From Candidatus Saccharimonadota bacterium (GTDB lineage Bacteria; Patescibacteriota; Saccharimonadia; Saccharimonadales; Saccharimonadaceae), in the NCBI GenBank assembly GCA_009777625.1, contig WRLL01000007.1, positions 1 through 37,199 of the forward strand: a DNA stretch of 37,199 nt. Direction: 5' to 3'. Below are positions 2,711-27,037 of the stretch, in pieces. How positions within the stretch are numbered: position 1 is the stretch's first letter; each line of letters opens with the position of its first letter. Position numbers and translations under genes: made by a program. The notes below the pieces were generated by a model that saw only the letters and a list, made by a program, of their open reading frames with translations, did no database searches and was not told where the DNA came from.

Positions 2711-4021
2711 ATGAGAACTTTATCCAGGGAGCTAAAAGACAAAATCGGCCAGGGAGTTGAATTACAAGGCTGGCTACATAAAAAACGCTTGCTGGGCGGT
2801 TTGAATTTTATTACATTGCGTGACCGCAGCGGCTTAACGCAAATGCTGATCAGCGACAAAGACGAAATAGAAAAGTTGCGTGGTCTGCAGATCGGCACAG
2901 TCATGACAGTCAAAGGAAAAGTCGTCGCTGATGAACGCGCGCCCGGCGGTGCAGAACTACACGATGTAAAAGTTGAAGTCGAAGTTCCCGTGACCGACGA
3001 GCCGCCGATTGAAATCGACAAACCGTTGGGCCACAAATCGGAAAACCTCGACACGCTGTTCGACAACCGCGTGATTGGTCTAAGAAACCTGCAGGAACAA
3101 ACGATCTTCAAAGTCCAGGCTGAAATCATGCATAGCGTCCGTGCTTACTTAGACGAAAATGACTTCACCGAAATGAGCACGCCAAAACTGCTGGCCGAAC
3201 CAACTGAAGGCGGCGCTGAAGTTTTCAAAATGGATTATTTCGGCAAAACCGCTACACTGGCGCAATCGGCCCAATTCTACAAACAGATCATGGTCGGCCC
3301 ATTCGAGCGCGTTTACGAAATCAGCAAAACCTACCGCGCCGAACCGAGTGCCACGCCGCGCCACATGACAGAATTCATCACGTTTGATGTTGAAATGGGC
3401 TTCATCATTTTCGATGATTTGCTTGGCTTAATTTCTGGCTTAATGAACCGCGTCAGCGACGATGTTTTCGCAAAATATAGCGATGATCTAAAGAAATGGA
3501 ATTCCGTTAAACCGACTTTACCCAAAGAAATCCCGCGTTTGAGTATGGCAGAGATTCACGAACTTTACACCAAAGCCACCAAAACTGACACAACCGACGA
3601 GAAGGATTTGACTCCCGACGAAGAGCGCTGGATCTGCGATTACGCCAAGAAAAACCTAAACTCAGAAGCAGTTTTCGTTGTCGATTGGCCAGCTAGCAGC
3701 ATGAAATTCTATCACCGATTGAAAGCCGACGATCCGACTTTGGCCGAGCGGGCCGACCTATTATTCCGCGGCCTCGAAATCGCCACGATTTCCATGCGCG
3801 AACATCGCTACGAGATCTTGGTGGAGCAGCTGAAAACGCTGGCCGACGGCGATCCAAACGACCCAGGTTTTGTGCCTTATCTATCAGCGTTTAAGTACGG
3901 CATGCCATCGCACGGTGGATTTGGTTTGGGTATGGAACGCTTGACTGAAAAATTGATCGGTCTTAATAATGTTAAGGAAGCTACACTCTTTCCGCGCGAT
4001 ATGAACCGCTTAACGCCATAA
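2711..4021 (+). CDS. aspS: Aspartyl-tRNA synthetase, archaeal-type (AspS2), possibly non-discriminating
   Basis: A 436-residue class II synthetase charging tRNA-Asp. The N-terminal OB-fold anticodon-binding domain begins with QGWLHKKRLLGGLNFITLRD. The catalytic core shows motif 2 as YRAEPSATPRHMTEF and motif 3 as GFGLGMERL, ending in the FPRDMNRLTP tail typical of AspRS. The length (about 430) and the lack of the GAD insertion domain match the archaeal form, not the roughly 590-residue bacterial one. His23 follows GWL, where discriminating archaeal enzymes usually have Trp. This hints that the enzyme may also charge tRNA-Asn for later amidation by GatCAB; a tRNA-Asn gene lies at 23760. The start has an AGAGG Shine-Dalgarno. 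Confidence 0.93.
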   Translation: MRTLSRELKDKIGQGVELQGWLHKKRLLGGLNFITLRDRSGLTQMLISDKDEIEKLRGLQIGTVMTVKGKVVADERAPGGAELHDVKVEVEVPVTDEPPIEIDKPLGHKSENLDTLFDNRVIGLRNLQEQTIFKVQAEIMHSVRAYLDENDFTEMSTPKLLAEPTEGGAEVFKMDYFGKTATLAQSAQFYKQIMVGPFERVYEISKTYRAEPSATPRHMTEFITFDVEMGFIIFDDLLGLISGLMNRVSDDVFAKYSDDLKKWNSVKPTLPKEIPRLSMAEIHELYTKATKTDTTDEKDLTPDEERWICDYAKKNLNSEAVFVVDWPASSMKFYHRLKADDPTLAERADLLFRGLEIATISMREHRYEILVEQLKTLADGDPNDPGFVPYLSAFKYGMPSHGGFGLGMERLTEKLIGLNNVKEATLFPRDMNRLTP

Positions 4022-23759: not shown

Positions 23760-23834
23760 TCCGGCGTGGCGCAGCGGTAGCGCAGTTGACTGTTAATCAA
23801 TTGGTCGCTGGTTCGAATCCAGCCGCCGGAGCCA
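23760..23834 (+). tRNA. tRNA-Asn (anticodon GTT)
   Basis: The acceptor stem TCCGGCG (23760-23766) pairs with CGCCGGA (23824-23830), followed by G and an encoded CCA (23832-23834). The anticodon loop CTGTTAA has GTT at 23792-23794. The T-arm GGTTCGAATCC is standard. If AspS at 2711 is non-discriminating, this tRNA may be charged with Asp first and then amidated. Confidence 0.95.
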
Positions 23835-23872
23835 AAATAAAATTATGACCCCAGTGGTCGTAATTTTATTTT
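23834..23872. terminator. Strong bidirectional terminator between tRNA-Asn and argH
   Basis: AAAATAAAATTATGACC (23834-23850) pairs with GGTCGTAATTTTATTTT (23856-23872) over 17 positions with one G-U pair and a five-base loop. A/T-rich arms give a U-run in both directions. It overlaps the argH stop codon. Confidence 0.85.
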
Positions 23873-25059
23873 AGACCTTTCTTAACCTGCTGATATGCAT
23901 CGCGAAACGGCACACCCTGTTCGACCAACTTGTTGATTTTGGCCACAGCATACAAATCGTCAGTCATCGCCGCGTTCAAATTGTCAGAATTGACACGCAG
24001 ATTTTCGACGCAAACGGTCAATGCTTCAATAGTATCGAGCACAATTGAGAAAGCTATCAAAGTCGTTGATTTTGTGATTTGCAAATCCCGATGGTAGCCG
24101 CTGCCGACTCCGCTGACGACGTTCTGCAGAGCAACTAAATGTGCCGGAAATTCATGTGCTCGAGCGCGGATGATTTCGAAAACATCGTAGTTGCGTTTTT
24201 GCGGCATGATCGACGAACCGGTCGTCATCGAATCGGGCAGGGCGAAAAACTTCAGCTCTTGCATGGTGAACTGGATCATGTCGGTCGCAAATTTTCCTGC
24301 GTAAATCATGATCGGGCTTAGCGACTGCAATGCGATCAATTCAAAAACTCCACGTGACATACCGCAGTACATTGGATTGTCCTGAACTTTTTGAAAGCCC
24401 AATTCTTTGGTTGTGAATTCCCTGTCCAAAGGCAATGTGACACCAAACCCAGCGGCCGAACCGAGTGGGTTTTGATCGATCATATTCGTTGCTGATTCTA
24501 TATATTTTTCAGTATCAGTAAAAGCCTGCTGATAAGCTCCCAGCCACATGCCGACGCTAGCCGGCATGGCTTTCTGCGTATGTGTGTAGCCGGGCATTGG
24601 TTGATCGCCAACCGACTTAATTTTTGTTAAGTAAGCGTGGTCAAGTTTTGACAATTTTGCAGAGACTTGCTTCAACTTGTCTTTAAGAAACAATCGCATC
24701 ATGACCAAAGCCTGATCATTTCGACTCCGTCCCGTGTGAACTTTCTTGCCAATACCACCAAGTTTTTCCGTTAAGTATAATTCGATTGCCGAATGACCAT
24801 CCTCCAATTCTTTGGCGATTTTGAATTGACCGCTTTGCCATTTCTTTAGCAGTTCATCCAACGTTTCAGAAATTTTGTTGGATTCGTTCTTAGAAAGAAT
24901 GCCGATTTTCTGCAACATGTGAGCGTGGGCTTTAGTCGCCGTGATGTCGTAACCAAGCAATTCTTGATCCAAGATTTGATCGTCGTCGACCGTGTAGCGT
25001 TCGATGACAGGGTGCAATTCAGAACCGTCATCAACTTGCCATAATTTTTTAGTTGTCAT
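23866..25059 (-). CDS. argH: Argininosuccinate lyase
   Basis: A 397-residue member of the fumarase/aspartase superfamily that splits argininosuccinate into arginine and fumarate, the last step of arginine synthesis. Signatures are VHTGRSRNDQ (about residues 107-116), YTHTQKAMP, and the flexible catalytic loop TGSSIMPQKRNYDVFE. The usual sequence in that loop is GSSxMPQKKNP, so Lys to Arg and Pro to Tyr are unusual. It is about 60 residues shorter than typical ArgH (about 460), mostly at the C-terminus, where AYQQVKKGL still resembles the family end. It overlaps argG by 11 nt, so both come from one transcript under the attenuator upstream. Confidence 0.92.
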   Translation of the reverse strand: MTTKKLWQVDDGSELHPVIERYTVDDDQILDQELLGYDITATKAHAHMLQKIGILSKNESNKISETLDELLKKWQSGQFKIAKELEDGHSAIELYLTEKLGGIGKKVHTGRSRNDQALVMMRLFLKDKLKQVSAKLSKLDHAYLTKIKSVGDQPMPGYTHTQKAMPASVGMWLGAYQQAFTDTEKYIESATNMIDQNPLGSAAGFGVTLPLDREFTTKELGFQKVQDNPMYCGMSRGVFELIALQSLSPIMIYAGKFATDMIQFTMQELKFFALPDSMTTGSSIMPQKRNYDVFEIIRARAHEFPAHLVALQNVVSGVGSGYHRDLQITKSTTLIAFSIVLDTIEALTVCVENLRVNSDNLNAAMTDDLYAVAKINKLVEQGVPFRDAYQQVKKGLK

Positions 25060-26308
25060 AACTGTATACTCCTTTCGCGGTTTTTTGCGCCAATGAATAG
25101 ATTTCGATAAACCCGGCCGAGGCGTTTTGATTGAAAGACATATCAGAATTAAAGGTTGCCAATTTGTGGTCGAACAACGTATACGGTGATGTCAAACTGA
25201 CAACAGTTAAATTGCCTTTGAACAATTCGACCGTGACCTCGCCGGTGACCTTCTGGTTGTGATGGTCAACGTAGGCCTGCAGATGGCTCAGCGCCGGGTC
25301 GTACCACTGGGCGGCGTAAACCATGTAGGCCCACTTGCTGTCGATGTGTTCCTTCAGTTCGTTTTCGGCCCGCGTCGAAACCAATTGTTCGAGCTTTTTG
25401 TGAGCGGCAATTAATATAGTTGCGGCCGGGTTTTCGTAAATACCCCGAACTTTCAATCCAACCAATCGATCTTCGATCAAGTTAATCACGCCAATGCCAT
25501 GCTTGGCGCCGATCGCGTTACAGTTTTTCACAATTTCGGATAGTGTCATTTTCTCCCCATCAATCGCTACCGGAATTCCTTTGTCGAATTTGATTTTAAG
25601 AAGCTGCGATTTGTCAGGAGTTTCGGCGATCGGCTTGCACCAACTAAGGATTTTATCCAACTTTGGTATCTCACCCGGGTCCTCGATTTCGCCACCCTCG
25701 CTGGTGATGCCCCACATGTTTTCGTCCTTGGAATAGGGCGAATCGACGGTTTGGTCGACATTGATGCCGTGTTCTATGGCGTAGGCCAACTCTTCTTCCC
25801 GTCCCATGCTCCATTCCCGAACCGGCGCCAGAATTTTCATCGCCGGATCCAACGTCGTGATGTAGGATTCGAAACGCACCTGGTCGTTGCCTTTGCCGGT
25901 GCAGCCGTGGGCGATGACTTGGCAGTCGTTTTCTTTAGCGAATTTGACGGCCAATTGCGAAATGATGACTCGGCCCAAAGGCGTGCTAAGGGCATAGCCA
26001 CCTTGGTAATCGGCATTGGCTTTGATGGCTTTCGACAACAGATGGTTGGCAAAATCGTCTTTCGCGTCATAAGTAATCGTCTTGATCGCACCAAGTTTCT
26101 TGGCTTTTTCTTCGATAGCTTTTAGATCGTCAACAGTTTGCCCAATGCCCAAAGTCAGCGTAATGACTTTGCAATCGTACTGTTCCTGAATCCACTTCAA
26201 CATGACAGAAGTGTCCAAACCGCCTGAATACAGCAGCAGGCATTTCTTAAACTCGCCTTTTTCGGCCTCGTGCGAAGCCACTTTTTTGTAAGTAATTTGA
26301 TCGTTCAT
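25049..26308 (-). CDS. argG: Argininosuccinate synthase
   Basis: A 419-residue ATP-dependent ligase joining citrulline and aspartate. The N-type ATP pyrophosphatase loop YSGGLDTSV is at about residues 27-35; AHGCTGKGNDQVRFE and the SPYSKDENMWG segment are strongly conserved in ArgG. The ATG at 26308 follows an AAGGAGAA Shine-Dalgarno. With argH alone the cell can make arginine from citrulline, but no ornithine or carbamoyl-phosphate genes are in the window, so a citrulline source is needed. The leader has the features of a ribosome-mediated attenuator with arginine codons. Confidence 0.96.
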   Translation of the reverse strand: MNDQITYKKVASHEAEKGEFKKCLLLYSGGLDTSVMLKWIQEQYDCKVITLTLGIGQTVDDLKAIEEKAKKLGAIKTITYDAKDDFANHLLSKAIKANADYQGGYALSTPLGRVIISQLAVKFAKENDCQVIAHGCTGKGNDQVRFESYITTLDPAMKILAPVREWSMGREEELAYAIEHGINVDQTVDSPYSKDENMWGITSEGGEIEDPGEIPKLDKILSWCKPIAETPDKSQLLKIKFDKGIPVAIDGEKMTLSEIVKNCNAIGAKHGIGVINLIEDRLVGLKVRGIYENPAATILIAAHKKLEQLVSTRAENELKEHIDSKWAYMVYAAQWYDPALSHLQAYVDHHNQKVTGEVTVELFKGNLTVVSLTSPYTLFDHKLATFNSDMSFNQNASAGFIEIYSLAQKTAKGVYSYDN

Positions 26309-26329
26309 AATTTTCTCCTTAGATAATTG

Positions 26330-26355
26330 AAAAGCCCCCGAGTTCTCACGGGGGC
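26330..26355 (-). terminator. Attenuator terminator of the argGH leader
   Basis: On the minus strand GCCCCCG (26355-26349), an eight-base loop, CGGGGGC (26340-26334) and then TTTTC. The T-run is short. A flanking pair TAATTGAAAA/TTTTCAATTA could extend the stem. Confidence 0.75.
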
Positions 26356-26412
26356 TACCAAGGCTTTTTCAATTACAATTTCAAGAGCAGCCCCCGCGGG
26401 TACGGTCGCTGC
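26333..26412 (-). promoter_or_regulatory. Arginine attenuator: mutually exclusive hairpins before argG
   Basis: Read on the minus strand, four segments appear in order. Segment 1, GCAGC (26412-26408), lies among the Arg codons and can pair with GCTGC (26391-26387) in segment 2. Segment 2, CGGGGGCT (26396-26389), can instead pair perfectly with AGCCCCCG (26356-26349), segment 3. Segment 3 can also pair with CGGGGGC (26340-26334), segment 4, forming the terminator. This is the 1:2, 2:3, 3:4 logic of classical amino-acid attenuators: stalling at the Arg codons frees segment 2 to form the antiterminator. Confidence 0.8.
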
Positions 26413-26452
26413 GACGGCGGATGACGGCTGGTGCGAAATTACTACTAATCAT
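26381..26452 (-). CDS. Arginine-rich leader peptide of argGH
   Basis: A 23-residue ORF (ATG 26452-26450, TGA 26383-26381). Five of its residues are Arg: codons 12-14 (CGC CGT CGC), 17 (CGT) and 19 (CGC), just before and within segment 2 of the attenuator. A ribosome held at codons 12-14 for lack of Arg-tRNA would leave segment 2 open; one reaching the stop would cover it. The ATG lies nine nucleotides after a -10 box with no Shine-Dalgarno, consistent with other leaderless starts in this window. The peptide has no other recognisable feature. Too short to be found by ordinary gene calling. Confidence 0.75.
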   Translation of the reverse strand: MISSNFAPAVIRRRSDRTRGGCS

Positions 26453-26461
26453 ACTTATCTT

Positions 26462-26490
26462 AAAATAACACATTGATTTCAGATTTGCAA
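26462..26490 (-). promoter_or_regulatory. Promoter of the argGH leader
   Basis: On the minus strand TTGCAA (26490-26485), a 17-nt spacer and TATTTT (26467-26462), nine nucleotides before the leader-peptide ATG. Confidence 0.5.
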
Positions 26491-26519
26491 GGGCCATGCG
26501 CGGTTATCTTGAAAAGTGT

Positions 26520-26525
26520 TATAAT
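26520..26525 (+). promoter_or_regulatory. -10 box that sets the GTG start of the downstream gene
   Basis: TATAAT (26520-26525) lies eight nucleotides before GTG at 26534. An in-frame TTG at 26525 overlaps the -10 box and cannot be in the transcript. No clear -35 box. Confidence 0.5.
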
Positions 26526-26533
26526 TGTTTTTA

Positions 26534-27037
26534 GTGAAAAAGTTCATAATAGCAGCAATTGCATTAGTAGTATCCTTGACCGGCGCCTTCGCCGTGCCAA
26601 AGGCTTTAGCGATGGATTATGATTACGCAATCATGATGGCTAACTGCCACGCTGCCCAGGCTGTGATAAGCCAAATCGAAAAAGCCGACGCTGTGTCACG
26701 TATTAATCGTGGGCGGGCCTATAACAATACGTTAGATCTGTTATTTGCTATGAATGCTCGATTGTCTAACAATCGCATTGCCGCACCGCGTTTGATCGAA
26801 CTGACGTCAGATTTCGAGACTCAGTTGGCCGCCTTTCGCGCCAGTTATGATCGCTATGATGCCGAACTAACACGTGTTATTGACATTAATTGCGCTCAAA
26901 AACCAACCGAGTTTTACGACCGATTATCCAATGCTCGCGAGTATCGCCAAACAATAGCCGACGAGATAAAACAGCTTAACAAGATCATCGACGAATATAA
27001 AAGCGAACTGAACAAAGTTGCCGAGGGACTGGAATGA
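26534..27037 (+). CDS. Exported helical protein of unknown function
   Basis: A 167-residue protein from the GTG at 26534. A clean signal peptide (KKFIIAAIALVVSLTGAFA, with probable cleavage after VPKALA) is followed by an all-helical mature part with coiled-coil character and two cysteines (NCHAAQ, DINCAQKP) that could form a disulfide once exported; the DsbA-like protein at 890 would be a suitable catalyst. I do not recognise the family. The next gene starts inside its stop (ATGA overlap) and encodes a membrane protein, so the two probably form a surface-associated pair. Transcription is likely leaderless. Confidence 0.75.
   Translation: MKKFIIAAIALVVSLTGAFAVPKALAMDYDYAIMMANCHAAQAVISQIEKADAVSRINRGRAYNNTLDLLFAMNARLSNNRIAAPRLIELTSDFETQLAAFRASYDRYDAELTRVIDINCAQKPTEFYDRLSNAREYRQTIADEIKQLNKIIDEYKSELNKVAEGLE

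Follow-up and report, generated by a model that had tools for sequence, protein, structure and literature searches.

A short, arginine-rich ORF lies ahead of argG and argH in the 37,199-nucleotide stretch of DNA analyzed here (contig WRLL01000007.1; hereafter, the window) and raises the question of whether a ribosome translating this ORF sets the transcription of the two genes. A first-pass annotation had proposed a ribosome-mediated arginine attenuator with a leaderless leader peptide at 26330-26490; counted with its promoter and the start of argG, the whole feature extends over 26490-26308. The proposed identities of argG and argH were borne out by NCBIfam models TIGR00032 and TIGR00838, both scoring above their cut-offs, and the two genes overlap by 11 nt. 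The argG of the window is 78-80% identical to argG of MAGs, two of which are named Saccharibacteria or Saccharimonadia; its sequence places the window in a Saccharimonadia genome, and the bacterium is very small and probably host-dependent. The leader ORF is located between a divergent plus-strand gene (start near 26525) and argG (ATG at 26308). Just downstream of argH, a tRNA gene with the anticodon GTT (Asn) is present on the opposite strand (23760-23831, plus strand), and an inverted repeat after it could terminate both transcripts. The features of the locus are as follows.

23866-25059, minus strand: argH, argininosuccinate lyase (TIGR00838, 307 bits; cut-off 279.5)
25049-26308, minus strand: argG, argininosuccinate synthase (TIGR00032, 458 bits; cut-off 268)
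26315-26320, minus strand: Shine-Dalgarno sequence of argG, AAGGAG (sequence)
26329-26340, minus strand: segment 4 CGGGGGCT (26340-26333) and U-tract, 3' arm of the terminator (terminator scan)
26349-26356, minus strand: segment 3 AGCCCCCG, arm common to antiterminator and terminator (pairing, terminator scan)
26381-26452, minus strand: leader peptide ORF MISSNFAPAVIRRRSDRTRGGCS, 23 codons and a stop, no Shine-Dalgarno sequence, predicted to be leaderless or to have a 0-3 nt leader
26387-26396, minus strand: segment 2 CGGGGGCTGC, 5' arm of the antiterminator (2:3 duplex energy, covariation)
26387-26412, minus strand: segment 1:2 hairpin GCAGC...GCTGC, candidate anti-antiterminator (in the full-length MFE structure)
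26404-26402 and 26398-26396, minus strand: the remaining Arg codons of the leader ORF (sequence)
26411-26419, minus strand: adjacent Arg codons CGC CGT CGC, codons 12-14, putative sensing position (sequence)
26462-26490, minus strand: best-scoring promoter, with the −35 box TTGCAA (26490-26485), a 17-nt spacer, and the extended −10 box TGT-TATTTT (26467-26462)

The leader ORF (ATG at 26452-26450, TGA at 26383-26381) is present as originally described, and its five Arg codons comprise an uninterrupted run at codons 12-14 and two more at codons 17 and 19. The three stems described with it are also present, i.e., GCAGC/GCTGC, segment 2 with segment 3, and segment 3 with segment 4 followed by the T-run. 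The stop codon does lie just after segment 2, with the correction that segment 2 is inside the ORF. The core of segment 2, CGGGGGCT (26396-26389), is complementary to segment 3, AGCCCCCG (26356-26349), and the antiterminator is mutually exclusive with the terminator, as backed by covariation. The intrinsic terminator stem (26356-26333) has 8 pairs, of which 7 are G-C, a loop of 8, and then TTTTC; this 3:4 hairpin has an energy of about −18 kcal/mol and was the sole terminator-like site detected by the terminator scan within 26250-26600. Thus placed, an intrinsic terminator with a U-rich tail lies between the leader ORF and the first gene, and the five Arg codons precede argGH. No Rfam family matched the element of the window with a score above any gathering threshold, and the T-box model RF00230 gave no match.

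Based on this anatomy, its conservation, covariation, the promoter spacing, and the matching of codons to genes across operons, we consider it very likely that the element controls argGH by ribosome-mediated transcription attenuation in response to charged tRNA-Arg; what we infer from these features is that the ribosome stalls, that transcription terminates, and that the genes are regulated in the cell. According to this model, transcription would begin at the leader ATG or within a few nucleotides of it, and the ribosome would start on the leader ORF without a Shine-Dalgarno sequence. If Arg-tRNA is plentiful, the ribosome would reach the stop codon and mask segment 2, leaving segments 3 and 4 to pair as the intrinsic terminator and transcription to end before argG. 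If Arg-tRNA is scarce, the ribosome would stall at CGC CGT CGC and mask segment 1; segment 2 would stay free to pair with segment 3, the terminator would not form, and argGH would be transcribed.

How far does the window alone take this argument? The ORF could encode a small functional peptide, or its Arg run could be due to chance, beside an ordinary constitutive terminator. Terminator-like hairpins are common, and Arg-rich short ORFs arise by chance in the window: the probability of at least 5 Arg in 22 codons is 2.2e-3, and RRR with at least 5 Arg occurs in 9 of the window's 716 short ORFs, although 3 of these 9 are nested forms of the leader ORF itself. Folding of the leader, which had been proposed as a check, gave a divided outcome. 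The 2:3 pairing is exceptional, being equalled by only 1 of 500 shuffles (duplex energy, −24.9 kcal/mol), but the energy of the whole leader is not (z = −1.15; 29 of 200 shuffles were equally stable) and is uninformative as proof. Taken alone, therefore, the window makes a moderate, suggestive case for an attenuator. It is the relatives that weigh against a functional peptide or a chance run: within family f1, the leader peptides differ outside the sensing Arg codons, whereas the position of the codon pair, the stems, and the promoter spacing are conserved. We regard this alternative as highly improbable, and because the anatomy is conserved in relatives, the leader is real beyond doubt.

This conservation is evident in ten leaders upstream of argG (the window, L002, L003, L005-L008, L023, L025, and L030). 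They share a promoter in which TTGNNN and a TANNNT box lie about 17 nt apart, a start codon usually 6 nt beyond that box, an ORF of 14-23 codons that includes a run of three or four Arg codons, and, after it, segments 2, 3, and 4. An alignment of argG leaders from related genomes had been set as a test beforehand, and in it the Arg codons are kept and the stems show compensatory changes (GGGGGC/GCCCCC, GAGGGC/GCCCTC, GAGGGTCG/CGACCCTC, and GAGGTG/CACCTC). The third bases of the Arg codons vary synonymously (CGC, CGT, CGA) with Arg retained, and for 30 of the 32 Arg leaders the RR pair starts between residues 10 and 12. By keeping both the Arg codons and the competing stems, the relatives support the attenuator reading. 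In one relative (L008, 2700-2945), two Arg leader-attenuators are arranged in tandem ahead of a single argG, the second ORF starting right behind the U-tract of the first terminator without a Shine-Dalgarno sequence.

Among the 393 genomes of the class, only 23 have argG above the Pfam cut-off, and in 13 of these the arg operon begins with an Arg leader, which takes this place whichever gene comes first (argG, argH, or a GNAT gene). One of the 23, G374, has a T-box in place of the leader, and 9 have neither a leader nor a T-box at argG (in families f27 and f29, plus one f1 and one f6 genome); the leader is therefore not universal. A search of 14 genomes that carry the element detected no ArgR (PF01316). 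The covariance model R1, for which eight f1-family leaders were used, found matches in families f6 and f31 at the heads of argH-argG or GNAT-argG operons, with scores of 31.3 bits (L035), 29.9 bits (L026), 23.7 bits (L024), and 17 bits (L021 and L012, confirmed by eye), and the peptides of these leaders are of the RRSSRI or RRTRI type. Conversely, a model built from these five leaders of other families with the window left out (R2) recovered the window with 25.4 bits (E = 0.0011). Most family-wide R1 matches scoring under about 30 bits proved to be leaderless protein starts (GCTATACT-N6-ATG) or simple terminators, and this group was discarded; on inspection, the phylum matches L201, L203, and L204 and the class matches L191, L198, and L205 were terminators or coding sequence. 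L052 (150-330), which also has an R1 match below about 30 bits, has a possible leaderless leader, MKVYAISNYHHNLLGVS, with a terminator, ahead of a gene of roughly 310 aa that by sequence is perhaps glutamate-cysteine-ligase-like; it is an unproven lead. An Arg leader also precedes argG-argH in two genomes outside the class (G533 and G546), which may reflect transfer.

The pairing itself was analyzed across the family. In 42 aligned leaders, 93.4% of the antiterminator helix is paired, all 9 pairs show two-sided changes at least once (71 double-changed cells; a level reached in 0 of 500 shuffles), and pairing falls to 28-53% when the partner is shifted by 1-3 columns; this alignment was fitted to the structure, which favors the pairing result. 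In an unaligned test with arms set by hand, segments 2 and 3 of the same leader paired with a mean of −16.6 kcal/mol versus −10.9 kcal/mol for swapped leaders (0 of 5000 permutations). With in silico masking of 16 leaders, P(antiterminator) was 0.54-1.00 for a ribosome stalled on the first Arg codon and 0.00-0.40 for one that had reached the stop codon, the corresponding values for the window being 1.00 and 0.25; in this in silico model, it is the position of the ribosome that decides between the antiterminator and the terminator. For the naked transcript, P(antiterminator) is 0.04-1.00 across the family and about 1.00 in the window, and an untranslated leader of the window would therefore read through rather than terminate. 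The 1:2 stem exists, but in the untranslated transcript of the window it is not predicted to outcompete 2:3 as long as segment 4 has yet to be transcribed.

A leader with consecutive Arg codons could also work through translation or RNA stability, as in Salmonella orf34/speFL, with the hairpin having no function as a terminator; uORFs with Arg codons that work via Rho and RNase G are known (PMC6386406). The family argues otherwise: essentially every member has a G-C rich hairpin with a U-tract, segment 2 mimics segment 4 and can therefore steal segment 3, and the Shine-Dalgarno sequence of argG lies outside the terminator hairpin. We consider such a mechanism improbable and retain transcription attenuation as the preferred reading.

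Is the sensor leaderless, as initially suggested? The promoter of the window matches 8 of 12 consensus positions and is weak, for which reason a regional promoter scan missed it; its −10 box TATTTT ends 9 nt ahead of the ATG, and an alternative −10 box, TAAGAT (26462-26457), overlaps it. From this spacing, the transcript of the window is predicted to be leaderless or to have up to about 3 nt of leader. In the family, the start codon follows the −10 box by 6-9 nt in 33 of 44 leaders (best promoter for each leader), and a Shine-Dalgarno-like sequence is present in 2 of the 44 only, suggesting that the leaders are leaderless or nearly so. By sequence, a leaderless sensor is accordingly well supported for the family and weakest for the window itself. 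It also fits the genomic habit seen in the relative G015, where −10 boxes peak 6-7 nt before start codons (38 and 31 per 1000 vs 4-6 in controls); 98 of 586 genes in G015 look leaderless. In G015 stretches L075-L112, a −10 box lies 5-7 nt ahead of a start codon in about one sixth of the long ORFs, pointing to leaderless mRNAs being widespread in Saccharibacteria.

The attenuator assignment at argGH stands, but the element is part of a broader family, not confined to argGH, within the order Saccharimonadales. Scans with R2 and R3 gave many more members in families f6, f21, f27, f28, f29, f31, and f34; most of them come from genomes that lack argG. Further Arg leaders, of the MxxxRRSSRIxGSCPC type, precede argS, alone or behind a GNAT or argB-like gene (L148, L153, and L154; also L151, where argS is named by resemblance only), argH (L187), and, in G223 (L158), a complete argH-argF-argJ-argB-argD-argC-argS operon. 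In the non-Arg members, this position immediately 5' of the hairpin is occupied by other codons. Leaders with Pro codons precede proB-type kinases (peptides MFKLQFSCIAPPSPR, MNYQYQYTKLNLPRPLPI, MNYLYQYTTSILPIPAPR, and MVQYRFSALPAPLPI; kinases at 100-173 bits, under the curated cut-off of 186) and proS (MNHICQYTISVLPTPPLT, MRYQSTFSVLPIPRPA, and MITFNLVTFITPPAPIRHRRLG), and some proS operons also hold a lysS-like gene further down. A Leu leader (...WQLLTLPSW...) precedes leuS, a Phe leader (MSYLLSQNQLFFSSSRGGLASFCK) precedes the prephenate dehydratase gene pheA (PF00800, 127 bits), and a Trp leader (...GAWQSSRY...) precedes an operon with trpS. In every leader whose operon can be assigned to a single amino acid, the codons match the genes (24 Arg, 7 Pro, 1 Leu, 1 Phe, and 1 Trp), with the genes named in part by family models and for the rest by resemblance. 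Several members precede genes without a clear amino acid link (GNAT, AstE/AspA-like, Asp/Glu racemase, and uncharacterized ORFs). These comparisons suggest that the element of the window is a member of a Saccharimonadales family whose codons at the stall site change with the amino acid of the operon.

This codon switching bears on a further alternative, namely that a riboswitch, a protein, or a tRNA binding the leader in the manner of a T-box controls termination without translation, the Arg codons being incidental. The arg operon of G374 has a T-box (L073; RF00230, 32.7 bits, below gathering; AGAGUGGUACCGCG motif), showing that direct tRNA sensing occurs in the order, and the nucleotides of a CGTAT stretch close to segment 1 are kept even by some non-Arg leaders. 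Set against this are the lack of any matching Rfam family, the retention of start codon, frame, and stop, the synonymous variation of the codon pair, and its change to PP, FF, LL, or W before cognate genes; a riboswitch needs neither a kept ORF nor cognate codon switching and is disfavored for this reason. We give direct binding little chance. We lean toward the view that in Saccharimonadales one ancestral leaderless attenuator scaffold, read by the ribosome, would serve as a general amino acid response, with its codon pair swapped (Arg, Pro, Leu, Phe, Trp, and probably others) in an exchange like that of T-boxes.

Further leaders occur in other settings. In G015:C1 (near 978084, minus strand), a leaderless leader with aromatic codons (MSHITNSSYWYIDTSRGDL) and its own terminator precedes GNAT and AstE/AspA-like genes, and L147 and L155 have Arg leaders before GNAT and AstE pairs resembling this one, suggesting, at the sequence level, an amino-acid-specific acyl-amino-acid metabolism. 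The scaffold members L159, L164, and L188 have Trp/Tyr codons before uncharacterized genes, one with a luciferase-like monooxygenase domain, and apparently lie within longer transcripts instead of at a leaderless promoter. L160 (G397:C47, about 1001-1123), also a member, has the Shine-Dalgarno sequence AAGGAG and His/Arg codons (MSNPNCNSHHNNHYRVRISGGCS) before an uncharacterized 469-aa protein, and the members L195 and L199 have Leu/Val codons (MKNNLLLVEVLITR and MYTMTSAFNLVVVVESR) before uncharacterized genes.

The element resembles the trp/his/leu attenuators of Proteobacteria in its short leader ORF, its runs of cognate codons, its stop near segment 2, and its mutually exclusive antiterminator and intrinsic terminator. 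In contrast to these, it senses Arg (and, in relatives, Pro), has no Shine-Dalgarno sequence, is predicted to be leaderless, and occurs in a Patescibacterium, and the 1:2 pre-emptor is not clearly dominant in many members of its family. The leaderless sensor had been put forward as a novelty; however, published reports already document it in Corynebacterium and Streptomyces. A leaderless leader ORF is the sensor, as here, for C. glutamicum IlvL, the C. diphtheriae ilvB leader, and S. lividans leuL, trpL, ilvL, and thrL, with a TSS one nucleotide from the start for Corynebacterium IlvL (PMC11857589), a leaderless leader peptide within an attenuator in C. diphtheriae (PMC5784534), and leaderless leader peptides also before aminoacyl-tRNA synthetase genes in S. 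lividans (PMC8079986). The actinobacterial attenuators respond to Leu, Ile/Val, Trp, Ala, Thr, or Met rather than Arg or Pro, and the accessible text of these sources describes no common scaffold with exchangeable codons for them (PMC11857589, PMC5784534, PMC8079986). A comparative survey of Actinobacteria reports no RNA element at arginine operons, and it cites T-boxes for arginine elsewhere (PMC1262725). Salmonella orf34/speFL likewise reads the arginine supply through consecutive (two) Arg codons in a leader ORF, but its target is an ornithine decarboxylase, it acts via Rho and RNase G, and it has a Shine-Dalgarno sequence (PMC6386406). The T-box, too, is a sensor of tRNA charging before biosynthesis and synthetase genes with one scaffold and exchangeable specifier codons; however, it binds tRNA directly without translation, whereas the specifier of the element sits in a translated ORF. 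In L073 (G374:C15, about 3428-3565, minus strand), the T-box-like leader precedes argH-argG, placing the same genes behind a different tRNA-sensing RNA. Finally, ArgR shares the target genes and the purpose of the element but is a protein repressor.

To our knowledge, few regulators are known in small-genome members of the candidate phyla radiation, and the open full-text literature yielded no account of attenuation or of leader peptides in either Saccharibacteria or that radiation. Within the literature that could be searched, the novel points are leader peptide attenuators for arginine and proline, the lineage in which they occur, and a single scaffold whose codons follow the operon. To the same extent, arginine (and proline) biosynthesis would gain its first leader peptide transcription attenuator with this element, and the candidate phyla radiation its first described case of leader peptide attenuation. 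Because the leaders form a natural codon-swap series, with one RNA frame and matching genes, the logic of attenuation can be tested by comparison. Moreover, the leaders indicate the amino acids whose shortage Saccharimonadales must answer to.
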